Origin: Hydrogenophaga sp. SL48 | GTDB lineage: Bacteria; Pseudomonadota; Gammaproteobacteria; Burkholderiales; Burkholderiaceae_C | NCBI RefSeq assembly: GCF_021729865.1 | Contig: NZ_CP063400.1 | Coordinates: forward strand, 3,782,001-3,846,000 | DNA: 64,000 nucleotides | Direction of reading: 5' to 3' | Shown here: positions 41,364 through 48,525 of the stretch, piece after piece | Layout of the letters: every line of letters starts with the position of its first letter | Position numbering within the stretch: position 1 is the first letter of the stretch | Position numbers and translations under genes: made by a program | Notes under the pieces: generated by a model | What the model was told of the DNA's origin: nothing | What the model saw: the letters and a program-made list of their open reading frames with translations, nothing else | Database searches by the model: none

Positions 41364-41795
41364 ATGTCCAACGAATCAAGCCCCCGCCCGGAAACCACCT
41401 TGCCGCAAGACCGTGAACTCGTGCTCAAGGTCATCCCGATGCCGGCCGACTGCAACGCCAACGGCGACATCTTCGGCGGCTGGGTCATGGCCCAGGTCGA
41501 TCTGGCGGGGGCGGTGGTGCCGGCCCGCTACTGCCGGGACCGCATGGTCACCGTGGCGGTCAACCAGTTCATCTTCAAGCAACCGGTGCGCGTGGGCGAC
41601 ATCCTGAGTTTCTTCGCCCACGTCACGCGCATCGGCAACACCTCGATCACCGTGCAGGTCGAGGTGTTCGCCGAGCGCTTTGGCACCCAGGGTCAGTACG
41701 TGAAGGTGACCGAGGCCAGCCTGACCTACGTCGCCATCGGACTGGACGGCCGGCCGCAGCAGATCCCCCGCGAGGGGTGGCAGCCGCCCGCCTGA
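41364..41795 (+). CDS. Acyl-CoA thioesterase, YciA-like hotdog
   Basis: 143 residues. The motif MPADCNANGDIFGGWVMAQVDLAG is the YciA/BFIT-type signature with the catalytic Asp in GGWVMAQVD. The family hydrolyses acyl-CoA. A longer frame reaches far upstream into the Atm1-like gene and is a shadow. The start is divergent from the Atm1-like gene. Confidence 0.9.
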   Translation: MSNESSPRPETTLPQDRELVLKVIPMPADCNANGDIFGGWVMAQVDLAGAVVPARYCRDRMVTVAVNQFIFKQPVRVGDILSFFAHVTRIGNTSITVQVEVFAERFGTQGQYVKVTEASLTYVAIGLDGRPQQIPREGWQPPA

Positions 41796-41828
41796 TCGGG
41801 CCCCGGCCCGGGGTGGGTCCGGCTAAGA

Positions 41829-41842
41829 TTGTCCATGGACAA
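41829..41842 (+). promoter_or_regulatory. TTGTCCATGGACAA palindrome before the IclR gene
   Basis: A perfect 14-bp palindrome ending 26 bases before the IclR ATG. The same arms TTGT-N6-ACAA recur at 47743 and 48512, so it is the probable IclR binding site and autoregulatory operator. Confidence 0.65.
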
Positions 41843-41868
41843 ATTCTTTCCATGGAGCCACAACCCCG

Positions 41869-42681
41869 ATGCCACCCGAAACCAAAACCGCCCGGCAGTC
41901 CAGCGCACCGGTGAAGAAGAGCGTGCGCGTGCGCGATGTGCCGGCGGTGACCCGGTCCATCGCCATCCTGCGGCTGCTGGGGCGAACCAACCAGGCCATG
42001 GGCGTCAAGGCCATCGCCGACGAGCTGGGCCTGGTGCCCAGCACCTGCCTGCACATCCTGCGGGTGCTGGTGAGTGAAGAGCTGGTGAAGCTGGAGCCGG
42101 GCACCAAGCACTACGCGCTCGGCAGCGGCATGATCAGCCTGGCCCGCAGCGTGCTCAAAGGGGGAAGTTTTGCCCAGCTGGCCCAGCCAGGGCTGGACCG
42201 GCTGGCGTCGGCCTATGGCGTGACGGCGATGGGCGTGGAGGTGACCCCCAAGCAGACGGTGGTGGTGCTGGCCCTGTCGAAGTCGGACCAGCCGTTCCGC
42301 GTGCACACCGATGTGGGCAGCCAGTTTTCGTCCCTGGTGAGTGCCACCGGGCGCCTGATCGCCGCGTACAGCGGTGACAACTGGACCGTGCTGCGCAAGA
42401 AGTTCGGGGCCATCGAGTGGGACAAGGCCCCGGGCTTTGCCCAGTGGAAGAAGGAAGTCGAAGAAACCCGGGTTCGGGGCTGGAGCGTGGACCGCGACAA
42501 CTTCATGAGTGGCATCACGGTCGTGGCGGTGCCCATCTTCGAGCCCTCGGGCCGCCTCATGCACACGCTGGTGGCCGTCGGCCTGTCCAGCCAGCTGAAT
42601 GCGGCCGCCACGTCGCAGCTGGCGGCCGCGATGCAGCGGGAAGCCCGGTCGATCGCGGACCTGCTGCTCGACCGGCACTGA
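41869..42681 (+). CDS. IclR-family transcriptional regulator
   Basis: 270 residues. The N-terminal winged helix (VTRSIAILRLLGRTNQAMGVKAIADELGLVPSTCLHILRVLVSEELV) is followed by an IclR effector domain (GRLIAAYSGDNW, GWSVDRDNFMSGITVVAVPIFEPSGRLMHTLVAVGL). IclR regulators control aromatic and carboxylic acid catabolism. It is the first gene beside the catabolic cluster and convergent with the Bug gene. Three likely operators in the region are listed separately. Confidence 0.93.
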   Translation: MPPETKTARQSSAPVKKSVRVRDVPAVTRSIAILRLLGRTNQAMGVKAIADELGLVPSTCLHILRVLVSEELVKLEPGTKHYALGSGMISLARSVLKGGSFAQLAQPGLDRLASAYGVTAMGVEVTPKQTVVVLALSKSDQPFRVHTDVGSQFSSLVSATGRLIAAYSGDNWTVLRKKFGAIEWDKAPGFAQWKKEVEETRVRGWSVDRDNFMSGITVVAVPIFEPSGRLMHTLVAVGLSSQLNAAATSQLAAAMQREARSIADLLLDRH

Positions 42682-42712
42682 CGCCACCCGCCGGCCGCGC
42701 TCCGGACCGGCC

Positions 42713-43675
42713 TCAATCGACCCGGATGTCGGCGCGTTTGATCACCGGCTCCCACTTCCTGCGCTCGGCGTTCGCGAAGTCGGCCAGTTGCGCAGGCGTC
42801 CCGCCCGCGGGGTCAAAACCCAGCTCCAGCAGGCGCTGCCGGGTTTCCGGTTGCATCAGCACCTTGTTGACGGCCGCATTCAAGGTCTGGATGACCGCCG
42901 GTGGCGTGCCCCTGGGCGCATAGAGGGCGTTCCAGGCCACCACCTCGAACCCGCTGAAGCCCTGCTCCGCCACGGTCTTGACACCCGGAACCAGGCCGCT
43001 GGGCTGGGCCGAGGTCACCCCCAGGGCCCGCACCTTGCCCGAAGCCAGGTGGGGGCGCAGCGCCGTCGGGGTGTCGACCACCGCCGGGAGTTGCCCGCCC
43101 AGCAGGTCCGTCATGGCGTTGCCCGAGCCCTTGTACGGCACGCCGAAGAGCTCCACCGACGAGAGGTCCTTCAGCAACTCGACCACCAGCCGCGCGGTGG
43201 TGCTGGGCATGGCGATGTCGGCGCTGCGCGGGTTGCGTTTCGAAAGGGCCACGAGTTCGGCGGCCGAGGTGATCCGCGAAGCGCTGTTCACGGCCATCAC
43301 CATGGGGAAGGTGCCGACGAGCGCGATCGGCTCAAAGTCCAGCGCGGGATCGAACGGAAGCTTGCCGTACAGAAACGGGTTGAGCACATGGGTGGCGTTG
43401 GTGCCCATGGTCAGGGTGTACCCGTCGGGCGCGGCCTGCTTGACCAGTTCGGTGCCGAGGTTGCCCCCGGCGCCGGCGCGGTTCTCGATCACGATCGGCT
43501 GCCCCAGGTCCTTGGCCATCAGGCCGGCCAGGTAGCGGGTGGCGATGTCGGTGCCCTGCCCTGCGGCGTAGGCGACGACGATCTTGATGGGCCGCGACGG
43601 GTAGGGCTGCGCGTGGACGGCCATGGTGGTCGTCAGTGCGCAAGCGGCGGTGATGAAGATGTTGAGCAATCGCAT
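42713..43675 (-). CDS. Bug-family periplasmic binding protein (TctC type)
   Basis: 320 residues with a cleavable signal peptide (MRLLNIFITAACALTTTMAVHAQ). Typical Bug features follow: YPSRPIKIVVAYAAGQGTD, VIENRAGAGGNLGTELV and APDGYTLTMGTNATHVLNPFLY. Bug proteins capture carboxylates and aromatic acids, sometimes without a dedicated TctAB pair; none is nearby. It is the last gene of the CoA cluster. Confidence 0.9.
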   Translation of the reverse strand: MRLLNIFITAACALTTTMAVHAQPYPSRPIKIVVAYAAGQGTDIATRYLAGLMAKDLGQPIVIENRAGAGGNLGTELVKQAAPDGYTLTMGTNATHVLNPFLYGKLPFDPALDFEPIALVGTFPMVMAVNSASRITSAAELVALSKRNPRSADIAMPSTTARLVVELLKDLSSVELFGVPYKGSGNAMTDLLGGQLPAVVDTPTALRPHLASGKVRALGVTSAQPSGLVPGVKTVAEQGFSGFEVVAWNALYAPRGTPPAVIQTLNAAVNKVLMQPETRQRLLELGFDPAGGTPAQLADFANAERRKWEPVIKRADIRVD

Positions 43676-43710
43676 GTCTGTCTCCTTCTATTGTGATGAC
43701 CAAATGGCCT

Positions 43711-44913
43711 TTAGGTACGGGGTCCGGGCGCGGCCCCCGTGTCTCGCAGTCGCTGACGGTCTTCCTTTGAATAGCCCAGGCCGGTCAGCACGGCCTCCGT
43801 GTCCTGGGCAAAACCCGGCGGCCGCTTGCCCGGCGACCCGGGTGTTCCCAGCAACCTCATGGGGGAGCGCAGGCCGGTGTAGTGGTCGCGGCGGACGACG
43901 ATGTCGCGGTGTTCGCAGTGCGCGTGCGCGAGCGCCTGCGGCACCGAATTCACCGCGCCGGCCGGCACGCCCGCCCGCATGAGCGCTTCGCACAGCGGCC
44001 CGCACGCCCGGTCTGCGATGGCCGCCTCGATCACCGCCTTCAGCGCGGCGCGGTGGCCCACGCGCAGGCTGTTGGAGGCAAACCGCGCGTCGTCCGGCAG
44101 GTCGGGCAACCCCAGGCAGGCGCCCAGGCGGCGGAACTGAGCGTCGTTCAGGATGCCGATGAACAGCTCCCCGTCCTGCGCCCTGAACTTGTCGTACGGG
44201 GCGATGTTCGGGTGCGCACTGCCCAGCAGCCGCGGCGAGTCCTTCGAGGCGAACCAGTTGGACGCGTGCGGCAGCAGCAGGCTGAGGGCCGTGTCGTACA
44301 GCGTGGCCTCCACCCGCTGCCCCCGCCCGCTGGCGTGCCGGGCCTGCAGTGCCATGAGGATGCCGGTCAGGGCGACGTAGCCGGTGAGGTGGTCCACGAT
44401 GGGCATGCCCACCCGCGTGGTGCCGCTGCACTCGTCGCCGTTGATGCTCATCAGGCCGCACATCGCCTGCAGCACGGCGTCGTATCCGGGCAACCCGCCG
44501 AGCGGGCCGTCGTTGCCGAAGCCGGTGATGCTGCAGTGGATGAGCCGGGGGTAACGCGCCGACAGCGTCTGCTCGTAGCCCAGCCCCCAGCGCTCCAGCG
44601 TGCCCGGCAGGAAGTTCTCGACCAGCACGTCCGCATCGGCCAGCAGGCGGTGGAGCACGTCCTGCGCCTCCGGCTTCGACAGATCGAGGCTGATCGCCTG
44701 CTTGCCCCGGTTGAGCGCCAGGAAGTACGCTGCGTTGCCCTCGCCGTCGAACGGCGGCCCGAGGCCCCGGGTCTCGTCGCCCGAAGGCGGCTCGACCTTG
44801 ACCACCTGGGCGCCGTGATCCGCCAGCATCTGGGTGCACAGCGGTCCCGCCAGCACCCGGGTGAGGTCCACGACCTTCACGCCGTTCAGTGCGCCACTGG
44901 CGGTGGTGGTCAT
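43711..44913 (-). CDS. CaiB/BaiF-type CoA transferase (class III)
   Basis: 400 residues. The N-terminus VKVVDLTRVLAGPLCTQMLADHGAQVVKVEPP is typical of formyl-CoA transferase, and PIVDHLTGYVALTGILMAL contains the catalytic aspartate (Asp174) that forms the aspartyl-CoA intermediate. It follows the MaoC-type gene by six bases, so they are co-transcribed. It probably shuttles CoA from a donor acyl-CoA to the pathway acid. Confidence 0.91.
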   Translation of the reverse strand: MTTTASGALNGVKVVDLTRVLAGPLCTQMLADHGAQVVKVEPPSGDETRGLGPPFDGEGNAAYFLALNRGKQAISLDLSKPEAQDVLHRLLADADVLVENFLPGTLERWGLGYEQTLSARYPRLIHCSITGFGNDGPLGGLPGYDAVLQAMCGLMSINGDECSGTTRVGMPIVDHLTGYVALTGILMALQARHASGRGQRVEATLYDTALSLLLPHASNWFASKDSPRLLGSAHPNIAPYDKFRAQDGELFIGILNDAQFRRLGACLGLPDLPDDARFASNSLRVGHRAALKAVIEAAIADRACGPLCEALMRAGVPAGAVNSVPQALAHAHCEHRDIVVRRDHYTGLRSPMRLLGTPGSPGKRPPGFAQDTEAVLTGLGYSKEDRQRLRDTGAAPGPRT

Positions 44914-44918
44914 GGTCT

Positions 44919-46058
44919 TCAGCCCTTGGAAGGCAGGATGACGATGCCGCTGCCGATCACCGAGAGTTCGTCGTTCTGGTTGCGGGCTTCCTGCTCGATC
45001 TCCACCATGTGCTGGCCGTTCTCGATGAACTTGCGCTTGACCTTGGCCTTGATGAACAGCATGTCGCCCTCGGGGTTGTGGCGGCGGATCTTGCAGCTGG
45101 CCTTGTGCAGGAAGCCGGCGTCACCGATCCAGTTGGTGAGCTGGTGCGTGAGCCACGAGGTGCGCTCCGGACCGTAGTCGTAGGCACCGGGCGCGCCCAC
45201 TTCCAGCGCGAAGTCTTCTTCCCAGTGCACACGCTCCGGGCAGTCGGGGATGCCGAAGCGGTTCTTGATGCCGACGCCCGGGTGCTGGTCGATGAGTTTC
45301 CAGGCCAGCTTGTTGGCGCGGATGTACAGACCGCCCCAACCCTGGGCGTAGGCGATGAACCCCGTCACGGTCATCGGGCCCTTGAACATCACGGGCAGGG
45401 CTTCGCCTTCCTTCACGTCTTCCCAGTAGCGGGGCGTGGCACCGCGGATTTCTTCGTCGCGGTACAGCTGGTAGGCCGCGCCCAGCTCTTCATCGGTGTA
45501 ACGGCGCGGCGCGCTCGACCGGGCCTCGGTGTACTTGGTGCCCTGCTCGCGGGCGTGGTCGCGCTCGGTGCGGAAGCACCAGCTGTCGGCTTCGGCCACC
45601 TTGTCACCGGTCTGGTTGAAGAAGTCCACGTGGTAGGTCTGCTGGACGGCACGACCGGCGAAGCGGGTCTGGTGCTCGACCAGGTCCTTCAGGTGGGCTT
45701 CGGTGTGGATCTCGTCGTTGCGGTGCACCGGCTTGTGCCAGGTCCAGTCGGCACCCGACCACATGGCGTGCACGCCCGGCAGACCACCGACGTAGCCCGA
45801 CACGATGCGGCTGGTCGAAAACAGGAAGCTGGGCAGCGCCACGATGCCACCGTGGTGGCTCTTGGCCGCGTAGTCGGGATCGCACCAGAGCGGGTTGTCG
45901 TCGCCGATGCCGTGGGCGTAGTGGCGGATGTTGTCGCGTGTGGCCTCGTGGCACCAGGGTTCGACGGTGTGGCCGATCTTGACGCCGATGCGCTCGCGCA
46001 ACTCGTCGAGGCCGCTTTCGGTGATCTTGGGAAACTGGCGGGGTTCGGTGCTGGACAT
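44919..46058 (-). CDS. Acyl-CoA dehydratase with two hotdog domains (FAS1-DH/MaoC type)
   Basis: 379 residues from the ATG that gives MSSTEPRQFPKITESGLDELRER, with GGAG upstream. The N-terminal hotdog has ATRDNIRHYAHGIGDDNPLWCDPDYA (the MaoC-type Asp/His pair region) and LPSFLFSTSRI. The second domain ends SCKIRRHNPEGDMLFIKAKVKRKFIENGQHMVEIEQEARNQND. The arrangement matches FAS1-DH-region proteins such as mesaconyl-CoA hydratases. The frame extends far upstream, but that part overlaps the ligase gene. Hydration of an enoyl-CoA is the likely step. Confidence 0.86.
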   Translation of the reverse strand: MSSTEPRQFPKITESGLDELRERIGVKIGHTVEPWCHEATRDNIRHYAHGIGDDNPLWCDPDYAAKSHHGGIVALPSFLFSTSRIVSGYVGGLPGVHAMWSGADWTWHKPVHRNDEIHTEAHLKDLVEHQTRFAGRAVQQTYHVDFFNQTGDKVAEADSWCFRTERDHAREQGTKYTEARSSAPRRYTDEELGAAYQLYRDEEIRGATPRYWEDVKEGEALPVMFKGPMTVTGFIAYAQGWGGLYIRANKLAWKLIDQHPGVGIKNRFGIPDCPERVHWEEDFALEVGAPGAYDYGPERTSWLTHQLTNWIGDAGFLHKASCKIRRHNPEGDMLFIKAKVKRKFIENGQHMVEIEQEARNQNDELSVIGSGIVILPSKG

Positions 46059-46108
46059 GTGGTCTCCTGGGGTGGTTGGGTGAATGGGTGAACGAATGGG
46101 GTGGGTGA

Positions 46109-47671
46109 TCAGGACGCCGTCGCGACCGCAGCAGCGAGCTCCTGCTCGCGCAGCTTCTTGCGGTGCACTTTCCCGGCGGGGGTCTTGGGCAGTTCGGGCA
46201 CGACGGCAACGTGGCGCGGGTATTCGTGCTGGCTCAGCTTGTGGCGCACCAGGTCCTGGATCTCTTCGGTGAAGGCCTCGGACTCGGGCCGCGCGCTCAC
46301 GACAAAGGCCTTGACCACCTGTCCGCGCACGGCGTCGGGCACGCCGATGGCGGCCGCCTCCAGCACATCGGGGTGCATGAGGATCACGTTCTCGATCTCG
46401 ACCGCGCTCATGGTCCAGCCGGCCGAGATGATCACGTCGTCGGCCCGGCCACCGTGGTGGAAGTAGCCCGCGCTGTCGATGCGCCCCAGGTCCTTGGTGG
46501 GAATCCACTGGCCACGGCGCTGGACCATCAATTGCCCGGTGGTGCCGACGGGACACAGCTGGCCGTCGACGTCGTGCACCTCCACCCGGGTGCCTGGCAC
46601 GGGCTTGCCGAGCGAGCCGCGTTTCACCCGGAAATCCGGCGCGCCCGGGTAGCTGACCAGCACCACACCGATCTCGGTGGTGCCGTACATGCTGCAGACC
46701 TCCAGGCCAAAGGTCTGGTGCACGAAGTTCGCGGTCTCGTCGTCGATGGGCTCGCCGGTGAACGACAGCTTCTCGAAGGCGTAGGTGTAGCGGTCGGCGA
46801 CAACGCTGTTCTTCATCATGCGGTAGTGCGTGGCCGCGGCCGACATGTTGGTGAAGCGGTGTTCTGAGAGGGCCTGCAGCAGCCGCTCGGGCTTGAAGCG
46901 CCCGCTGTAGGCACCCACCGTCAGGCCGAGGGCCAGCGGTGCCAGCGTGCCGTGCCACAGCCCATGCCCCCAGGCCGGCGACGAGGGACAGAAGAAGCGG
47001 TCACCCGGGCGCAGACCGGTGCCGTACAGCGCCGCCACCATCAGGGTGATCAGGGCGCGGTGTGAATGTTTGACGGCGTCGGGCAGCTCGCGGGTGGTGC
47101 CCGAGGTGTACTGGAACACCGCCAGGTCGTCGGCCCGCGTCTTCACCTCAAAGGTCGAGGGCAGGTGCTGGATGGACGACAGGAAGTCGGCGTTGAAGAC
47201 CAGCACGCCATCGCCAACGATGGACCGCGCCACCGCCTGCTTCTCGTCGTTGGTCACCAGCAGCGCCGGCTGGCAGTCGTTGACACGCAGGCGGATGCCG
47301 TCGGGGCCGAACAGCGTGAACAGCGGCACCGCGATCGCGCCGCTCTTGATGACGCCGAACATGGCGACATAGAACGCCCGCGAGGGCTCCAGCATGATCG
47401 CCACGCGCTGGCCGGGCTGAATGCCCAGCGCCACCAGGTGGTGGGCAAAACGCGAGGAATCCTCGGCCAGTTCTTTGAAGGTGATGACCTCGTCGGCGCC
47501 TTCGGCGTTCACCACGATCAGCGCCTCGCGCCCGGAGGCGGCGTAACGGTCCACGCACTCGTGGCCCATGTTCAGGTGTTCGCGGTTGCCATCGAACAGC
47601 TCCCACAACTTGTCGTTGGAGAAGTGCGCCTGGGCATCGGCGTAGCTGGTGAAGTCGGTCAGTTTTTTCAT
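46109..47671 (-). CDS. Acyl-CoA synthetase (ANL superfamily) with an unusual P-loop
   Basis: 520 residues from the ATG that gives MKKLTDFTSYADAQAHF. The adenylation core is present: FQYTSGTTRELPDAV at the P-loop, then SSPAWGHGLWHG, MYGTTEIG, and the C-terminal lid GRADDVIISAGWTMSAVEIEN and PKTPAGKVHRKKL with the catalytic lysine. The usual GxPKG after YTSGTT is replaced by RELPD, so the normal lysine is missing. The likely operator and strong promoter lie 66 bases upstream. The substrate is unknown. Confidence 0.9.
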   Translation of the reverse strand: MKKLTDFTSYADAQAHFSNDKLWELFDGNREHLNMGHECVDRYAASGREALIVVNAEGADEVITFKELAEDSSRFAHHLVALGIQPGQRVAIMLEPSRAFYVAMFGVIKSGAIAVPLFTLFGPDGIRLRVNDCQPALLVTNDEKQAVARSIVGDGVLVFNADFLSSIQHLPSTFEVKTRADDLAVFQYTSGTTRELPDAVKHSHRALITLMVAALYGTGLRPGDRFFCPSSPAWGHGLWHGTLAPLALGLTVGAYSGRFKPERLLQALSEHRFTNMSAAATHYRMMKNSVVADRYTYAFEKLSFTGEPIDDETANFVHQTFGLEVCSMYGTTEIGVVLVSYPGAPDFRVKRGSLGKPVPGTRVEVHDVDGQLCPVGTTGQLMVQRRGQWIPTKDLGRIDSAGYFHHGGRADDVIISAGWTMSAVEIENVILMHPDVLEAAAIGVPDAVRGQVVKAFVVSARPESEAFTEEIQDLVRHKLSQHEYPRHVAVVPELPKTPAGKVHRKKLREQELAAAVATAS

Positions 47672-48006
47672 GGTGTTCGTCGTTCGTCTGGTGTGGATGA
47701 ATTCTTGGTGGATTTTCAATTTTTGTCAAATGGCACATTATTTTGTACATAGACAATTTGTCAAATCACCCAAAAACGGTCTTGAGAAGCGCTTCTCCAG
47801 CGCATGAACGTCAATGCATCAGCAAGGGGGATATCGGGTGATGGAGGGGCCGGCGGCCTGGCGCGGACAGCGCCCGGGGAGTGCTCCGCGCCGGCACGCG
47901 GGCGCGCTGACAAAAAGCCTCACAAGGCCTCGAGGCCCCGATGGTCAGGCGGTGCCGACCGGCATCAAGTGCAGGGACCGTCCGGTCGCGGACAGGCCGC
48001 GGCCGG
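47672..48006 (-). other. Intergenic region with the ligase promoter; otherwise unremarkable
   Basis: A gene-free stretch of 335 bases between the ligase and the thioesterase-like gene. It holds the promoter and operator listed separately, a 10-bp direct repeat TTTGTCAAAT (47722-47731 and 47757-47766) and a 14-bp palindrome GAGAAGCGCTTCTC (47784-47797). I see no gene or terminator in the rest. Confidence 0.6.
47737..47764 (-). promoter_or_regulatory. Promoter of the CoA ligase gene with operator inside the spacer
   Basis: On the minus strand -35 TTGACA (47764-47759), a 16-base spacer and -10 AATAAT (47742-47737) form a near-consensus sigma-70 promoter, 66 bases before the ATG. The palindrome TTGTCTATGTACAA (47756-47743) fits entirely within the spacer, so a bound protein would block polymerase. 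Confidence 0.75.
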
Positions 48007-48441
48007 TCACCTCGCCGGAGCGGGTCTCAGCGGTTTCAGGATGGCGCGGGCGACCAGGACGGGCCGGTCTTCGACCTGCACCGAGCCCTCCATGAACACC
48101 AGGCTGCCGGTGCGCGCGGTGACACTCGCCCGGGCCAGCGCGAACTGCCCCGCGCGCACCTCGGCGAGGAAGTGCGTGTCGAGCTGCACGGTCACACACG
48201 GCGTGCGATCACAGGCCTCCCAGGCCACCGTGCTCAGCACGTGATCGATCAGCGTGCCCAGGGCGCCGCCGTGCACCACCCCGGCGGGGTTCAGGTGCCG
48301 GTCTTCGGCGAACAGCCCGTACACCCAGCCAGCGCCCTCGCGTCGCGTCCACAAAGGCCCGGCCAGCCCCATGAAGCCGCCCAGCTGACGGGGCTTCCAG
48401 CCTTGCTCCTGCAAACGATCCATCGGTTCCGAACGGGTCAT
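48007..48441 (-). CDS. PaaI-type thioesterase
   Basis: 144 residues from the ATG preceded by AGAGGA. The hotdog motif NPAGVVHGGALGTLIDHVL is typical of PaaI-like thioesterases, with VTVQLDTHFLAEVRAGQFALARASVTARTGSLVFMEGSV after it. It may release stuck CoA esters in the pathway. It is co-directional with the cluster. Another TTGT-N6-ACAA site lies 71 bases upstream. Confidence 0.87.
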   Translation of the reverse strand: MTRSEPMDRLQEQGWKPRQLGGFMGLAGPLWTRREGAGWVYGLFAEDRHLNPAGVVHGGALGTLIDHVLSTVAWEACDRTPCVTVQLDTHFLAEVRAGQFALARASVTARTGSLVFMEGSVQVEDRPVLVARAILKPLRPAPAR

Positions 48442-48511
48442 GAGGTCCTCTTTCTGGTGGCTTGGGTGGGGCGATCCCGGTGCAATCAATGGATGCCTTG
48501 AAGCAAACAAA

Positions 48512-48525
48512 TTGTACGGACACAA
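48512..48525 (-). promoter_or_regulatory. TTGT-N6-ACAA palindrome before the PaaI-type gene
   Basis: On the minus strand TTGTGTCCGTACAA; with flanking bases it is AATTGTGTCCGTACAA. A TTGGGA -35 precedes it with the same 16-base spacing as in the ligase promoter, but the -10 (TTTGTT) is poor. Shares arms with the IclR sites at 41829 and 47743. Confidence 0.55.

Follow-up and report, generated by a model that had tools for sequence, protein, structure and literature searches.

The closest described systems to the locus reported here are the local catabolic regulons of the IclR family, in which, within the accessible part of the survey of Suvorova and Gelfand (2021, PMC8222616), the regulator is encoded beside the genes it controls and has palindromic sites, with half-sites or tandem sites about 20 nucleotides (nt) apart. 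That survey records 94 groups with tandem sites separated by 18–22 nt and 32 groups with three-box sites, and it cites PcaU, PobR and HmgR for an external direct repeat of the half-site. We have analysed a stretch of 64,000 nt of the Hydrogenophaga sp. SL48 genome (contig NZ_CP063400.1, positions 3,782,001 to 3,846,000; hereafter the window), in which an iclR gene lies beside genes for a coenzyme A (CoA) ligase, a CoA-transferase, a dehydratase, a Bug receptor and a PaaI-type thioesterase. A first-pass annotation had noticed TTGT-N6-ACAA palindromes before the iclR, ligase and PaaI genes and proposed a likely local IclR regulon. The window indeed holds exactly three such palindromes (Table 1), and the proposed regulon is now strongly supported, as far as comparative sequence evidence goes, by the co-occurrence of its members, by operator positions conserved in two proteobacterial classes, by sites shared between divergent genes, and by an operator change in Sphingobium that is matched in the recognition helix of the regulator.

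The locus resembles the described IclR regulons in the traits just listed, while the operators themselves are different. Relative to the consensus sequences in the available text of PMC8222616, the TGT-N6-ACA spacing is shorter than in group 1 (GKTYCRYW3-4RYGRAMC), whose W3-4 centre is absent here, the arms lying by eye closer together, and the arm direction differs from that of group 2 (TGRAACAN1-2TGTTYCA). As in the PcaU, PobR and HmgR operators cited there, an inverted pair of half-sites is accompanied by an external direct repeat (GACAA at 20 nt, in 28 of the 28 elements described below), but this putative third box is here also part of an invariant TTGACAA that coincides with the -35 hexamer, and both the box sequence and the inner spacing differ. 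A short GTC...GAC palindrome with a downstream half-site is also listed for IphR of Comamonas sp. E6 (isophthalate; PMC8222616, its Table 1), although the arrangement is GTC-N6-GAC there and GTC-N4-GAC here, where the site reads so, and the target genes are not the same. On the sequence evidence, an uncharacterised CoA-thioester module very probably has here its own local regulon of the IclR kind, and the supplementary tables of PMC8222616 may already include this orthologous group.

Orthologous loci (L numbers, in genomes with G numbers) were gathered by similarity to the IclR protein and to the dehydratase, from plasmid records, and from the family of G983, a genome met in a pattern search. 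The first-pass annotation had held that orthologous clusters lacking the sites would speak against the regulon; in fact, 27 of the 29 distinct loci having both iclR and ligase keep the ligase operator exactly 13 nt before a TTGACAA, 26 of them with the exact palindrome and one (L061) with TTAT-N6-ACAA. This count omits L033 (a stretch without the ligase), L056 (a 34% paralogue without cluster), L057 (the G224 locus with iclR, the operon of that genome lying in L110), L119 (from the genome already represented by L121), and L062 and L063 (identical in sequence to L034 and L032). The loci with both genes span Beta- and Alphaproteobacteria, with IclR identities down to 44%, and their gene order varies, in that iclR may follow the operon, be transcribed divergently from the ligase or adjoin PaaI; G224, where the operator is still kept, has its iclR and its ligase operon on different contigs. 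Divergent iclR and ligase genes share a single palindrome between them in L052–L055, L061 (the TTAT variant), L116 and L121–L123. A conserved operator thus stands before the regulator and/or its neighbours in orthologous clusters, as in a local regulon.

Regulator and operon also occur together. The IclR protein (E ≤ 1e-40) and the dehydratase (E ≤ 1e-120) mark the identical 13 of 200 genomes of the family, and likewise the identical 9 of 67 genomes of the genus (IclR at 1e-60). In the sample of the order, IclR (E ≤ 1e-70) is found in 2 of 399 genomes and the dehydratase (E ≤ 1e-100) in 8, both IclR genomes included; the other six carry dehydratases of 48–66% identity, and the exact dyad is present in none of eight loci of about 4 kilobases (kb) each from those six. 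A distant copy could be missed, since the candidates scored per genome were limited (at most 12 in the family sample and 4–6 in the order sample). Genome G275 carries three dehydratase homologues, 55–61% identical, within 11 kb (C13:65633-76542), and has no IclR match at 1e-70. The composite pattern palindrome-N13-TTGACAA occurs in 15 of the 200 family genomes, against none for a backwards control; these are all 13 cluster genomes, with the pattern at the ligase, together with G008 and G092, in which no cluster gene lies within the 2.4–3 kb loci searched. In the family of G983, IclR is found in 3 of 29 genomes, all three with the same architecture between iclR and ligase.

A number of results weigh against the regulon as proposed. 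The ligase dyad is missing in 2 of the 29 loci, those of Sphingobium (L117, L118). One of the 27 (L121, of G983) was found through the pattern itself and is hence not independent, the other 26 having been found by protein similarity, and close relatives are numerous among the 27, which therefore do not represent as many independent events. In the phylum sample the composite pattern is seen in 3 of 398 genomes and the backwards control in 6, so that only the place of the hits (two of three at the cluster, one of these being the window) is informative, and not their number; the three are the own genome, G983 with its orthologous cluster, and G923 without one. Also, no exact dyad lies within 200 nt upstream of iclR in 12 of 23 loci, nor of PaaI in 12 of 21, which indicates that autoregulation and control of PaaI are not universal.

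The architecture of the ligase promoter was derived from 28 elements, namely 27 ligase promoters and one Bug promoter (L051), the Bug gene of G148 being separate from the operon and having its own palindrome-N13-TTGACAA (L051 5615-5648). All 28 have TTGACAA 13 nt downstream of the palindrome. In the window this yields a TTGACA-17-AAGAAT promoter (47729-47701), which the first-pass annotation does not mention and which is the conserved one, with its -35 at 47729-47724, its -10 at 47706-47701 and a predicted start near 47694; the palindrome is thus placed near -55, a second half-site overlapping the -35. Indeed, the GACAA of TTGACAA repeats the right half of the palindrome (GACAA or TACAA) at 20 nt. 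The -10-like hexamer is weak in all elements, the best match being 3 or 4 of 6 and never more. In the information profile of a reduced set of 16 rows, the outer four bases of both palindrome arms are invariant save one base in one row, and so are all seven bases of TTGACAA; the -10 gives a smaller peak, the palindrome centre is partly conserved (0.9–1.3 bits), and some intervening columns reach 0.9 bits.

We propose that the IclR protein, bound to the palindromes, would locally control an uptake and CoA-thioester module comprising receptor, ligase, CoA-transferase, hydratase and thioesterase. At the ligase operon it would meet a rigid composite operator, made of the palindrome at about -62 to -49 and the GACAA half-site within TTGACAA and the -35, which at 20 nt is two helical turns away; with a ligand, presumably one of the pathway's organic acids or CoA thioesters, it would help RNA polymerase at a promoter with a weak -10. 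In the Hydrogenophaga clade it would also repress its own gene, where the palindrome adjoins a -10-like hexamer and would cover the presumed start. Taken as a whole, this explanation (local regulon, composite operator, activation of the ligase operon, autorepression) has in our estimate a probability of roughly 0.6. Activation of the ligase operon is somewhat favoured, because a strong and widely kept element stands upstream of the -35 and every -10 hexamer is weak, matching at most 4 of 6 positions, as expected of a promoter needing help. The Escherichia coli regulator MhpR activates from a similar distance.

A close rival is plain repression from the same operator, in which an IclR tetramer would occupy both palindrome and TTGACAA half-site and cover the -35 until a ligand releases it. 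Two points count in its favour and against activation: a second half-site that falls within the -35, as seen in 28 of 28 elements, could just as well signify occlusion, and the constant spacing may reflect tandem-site geometry instead of contact with polymerase, since centre-to-centre distances of 18–22 nt are frequent among IclR regulons in the part of PMC8222616 available. Besides, the -35 is a perfect consensus, and some characterised IclR proteins do repress, such as PheR, for which the accessible text of PMC13273656 gives protection from -21 to +23. Against repression stand the upstream position of the strong, widely kept element and the weakness of every -10, and we regard it as possible rather than probable. 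It is also conceivable, though doubtful, that the -35 doubles as an operator half-site, so that one IclR tetramer would block or recruit sigma depending on ligand; the rigid geometry and the compact palindrome, which matches none of the main published IclR motif types, would then have been kept in Alpha- and Betaproteobacterial clusters, by descent or old transfer, with the recognised letters changed in Sphingobium.

In the Hydrogenophaga clade, autorepression is the probable role of IclR at its own gene, as suggested by a palindrome that extends over the presumed start directly next to a -10-like hexamer. By eye, the palindrome starts at the final base of TAAGAT or TAACAT in the window, L030, L031, L032 and L034, and at the final base of TATAAT in L055, which has another gene order and in which the same palindrome sits near -55 on the ligase side; a promoter scan before iclR recognised no promoter and no -35. 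Exact dyads within 200 nt upstream, counted from partly estimated gene starts, are found at the ligase in 21 of 22 loci (0.16 expected), at iclR in 11 of 23 (0.03) and at PaaI in 9 of 21 (0.05), so the two other sites noted in the first-pass annotation are kept less widely than that of the ligase. Four of the 11 iclR cases (L052–L055) are dyads shared with the divergent ligase and two (L044, L045) are dyads between PaaI and iclR, whereas one of the nine PaaI cases (L051) is the ligase's own site. The two genomes with this extra dyad between PaaI and iclR (L044 10419, L045 10638) belong to one genus. In the five Hydrogenophaga-clade loci the PaaI site is, by eye, exact in three (window, L030, L031) and has TTGC for TTGT in two (L032, L034). 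Control of PaaI through this operator is likely, the site being the least certain of the three.

The protein that binds the palindromes is very probably the IclR-family regulator. All 23 orthologue rows, and L116 as well, have STCLHILR as the recognition helix; L119 has STCMHILR, and the paralogue L056 differs. The Sphingobium loci have STCLYVLR, with His changed to Tyr and Ile to Val, and by eye carry between iclR and ligase, at nearly the same place, TTC-N8-GAA 12 nt before TTTACAA; this joint change of operator and recognition helix, in one lineage, points at IclR itself. A different regulator could be the binder, with IclR a bystander, for example a MocR/GabR protein like EnuR: in the available text of PMC8739950 and PMC5320631 the dyad of EnuR/EutR (MocR family, ectoine catabolism), ATTGT-N6-ACAAT, is very similar, and the genome has 25 GntR-domain matches, not sorted further. 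A literature string search for the dyad forms returned the EnuR paper only. EnuR/EutR, however, belong to an unrelated protein family; no gene is named MocR in the annotated stretches examined (L114, L116 and the only partly annotated L118), and none is among the families common to most loci. IclR is the only regulator among the families found in at least 13 of 21 loci, one dyad stands before iclR itself, and the Sphingobium change follows the IclR helix; we thus consider another binder improbable.

The first-pass annotation had further placed the ligase palindrome in the spacer of a TTGACA-16-AATAAT promoter, from where the regulator would repress. The match does exist (47764-47737), both hexamers together agreeing at 11 of 12 positions, and at the PaaI site TTGGGA is present at the same offset. 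Yet the upstream TTGACA occurs in 1 of the 28 elements, that of the window, against the downstream TTGACAA in all 28, and comparison of orthologues rules out the spacer promoter as the conserved one, which leaves repression from within it most improbable. The ligase palindrome is flanked by two copies of ATTTGACAAA 35 nt from each other (window 47722-47766, minus strand); the one upstream, which the other promoters compared lack, gives rise to the -35 read by the first-pass annotation.

A genome-wide search, which the first-pass annotation had advised, returned 19 distinct TTGT-N6-ACAA sites in the single contig of 5.43 megabases against 67 for the backwards control, so the dyad is not over-represented genome-wide; three of the 19 lie inside 6.7 kb (rough scan statistic, p ~0.005). 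Against a matrix that was built on 20 orthologous ligase sites and excludes that of the window, the ligase and iclR sites reach 26.3 and 22.8, above the 16 dyads outside the cluster (best 17.2), while the PaaI site, at 9.5, does not surpass them. All 16 score below the ligase and iclR sites, and additional regulon members in the own genome are not supported; eight of the 16 fall within a likely coding frame by a crude reading-frame test. The best of them is TTGTCGAAGTACAA (L011, G000:C1:2491552). That the sites are a chance or composition artefact is scarcely credible: the dyad is rarer than its backwards control and the PaaI score is indistinguishable from those of other genomic dyads, but upstream counts far above expectation, together with dinucleotide shuffles of the window (mean 0.21, none of 100 reaching three), rule chance out for the ligase and iclR sites and leave it possible for the PaaI site.

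Regarding the genes themselves, both HTH_IclR and IclR_C domains exceed their curated cut-offs in the regulator, which scores 80.5 bits with the BhcR equivalog NF045644, where more than 350 are required; it is 96% identical to the H. aromaticivorans IclR, and its closest named matches are from Hydrogenophaga. Dehydratases of the 20 further family and genus genomes with this gene are 80–98% identical to that of the window. A neighbour survey, based on crude reading-frame calls and families in at least 4 of 21 loci, gave only the six cluster genes as families in at least 13 loci; beyond these it gave one frame antisense to the cluster genes (9 loci; no match to cluster proteins) and two families in four Hydrogenophaga loci only, the MsbA-type ABC transporter and a protein that by eye is a putative LysR regulator. 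Pseudosulfitobacter differs in having TRAP transporter genes after the dehydratase, in the place that the CoA-transferase and Bug genes occupy elsewhere. A YciA-like thioesterase gene (window 41364-41795) ends 33 nt ahead of the iclR palindrome and is found in that place at >80% identity only in the Hydrogenophaga-clade loci L030–L032 and L034. In L060 (G235:C19:220147-220935) the iclR frame has one in-frame TGA, possibly an error of draft sequencing, and the ligase operator is intact.

Table 1. Coordinates of operators, promoter elements and genes of the cluster in the window
Feature	Position	Strand	Remarks
Operator 1, TTGTCCATGGACAA, before iclR	41829..41842	+	perfect palindrome; first base is the last base of the -10-like TAAGAT (41824-41829)
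Operator 2, TTGTCTATGTACAA, before ligase	47743..47756	-	13 nt upstream of TTGACAA; centre about -55 from predicted start
Operator 3, TTGTGTCCGTACAA, before PaaI	48512..48525	-	84 nt ahead of PaaI start; weakest of the three
Conserved TTGACAA	47723..47729	-	-35 hexamer and invariant A; contains half-site GACAA; 28/28 elements; information profile
Predicted -10, AAGAAT	47701..47706	-	17 nt after TTGACA; A2 and T6 kept in 28/28 at 16–18 nt
Spacer promoter TTGACA-16-AATAAT	47737..47764	-	window only, among promoters compared
IclR-family regulator gene	41869..42681	+	270 residues; PF09339 36.4 bits, PF01614 51.4 bits, both above cut-off
TctC/Bug periplasmic receptor gene	42713..43675	-	PF03401 219 bits
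Family III CoA-transferase (CaiB-type) gene	43711..44913	-	PF02515 386 bits
FAS1-like/MaoC dehydratase (hydratase) gene	44919..46058	-	PF13452 58.8 bits
AMP-forming acyl-CoA ligase gene	46109..47671	-	first gene of the operon; PF00501 220 bits
PaaI/4HBT thioesterase gene	48007..48441	-	PF03061 48 bits

In the carnitine/crotonobetaine CoA cycle, an acid is primed by a ligase, hydrated as its thioester, and the CoA passed on by a transferase. As a set, the ligase, CoA-transferase, hydratase, carboxylate receptor and thioesterase may resemble this cycle. Sequence searches of NCBIfam and the PDB for the substrate of the module gave family-level names only, the AlphaFold model of the dehydratase is too poor to use (mean predicted local distance difference test score of 42), and a literature search for the gene combination found no paper. 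The analysis turns what had been a guess from sequence into a well-supported regulon with a precise and testable promoter geometry. The regulator and its operon provide a handle on a conserved six-gene CoA-thioester module, for which we found no description of the substrate, and the operator change in Sphingobium offers a small natural test of which residue of the recognition helix reads the outer base pair.

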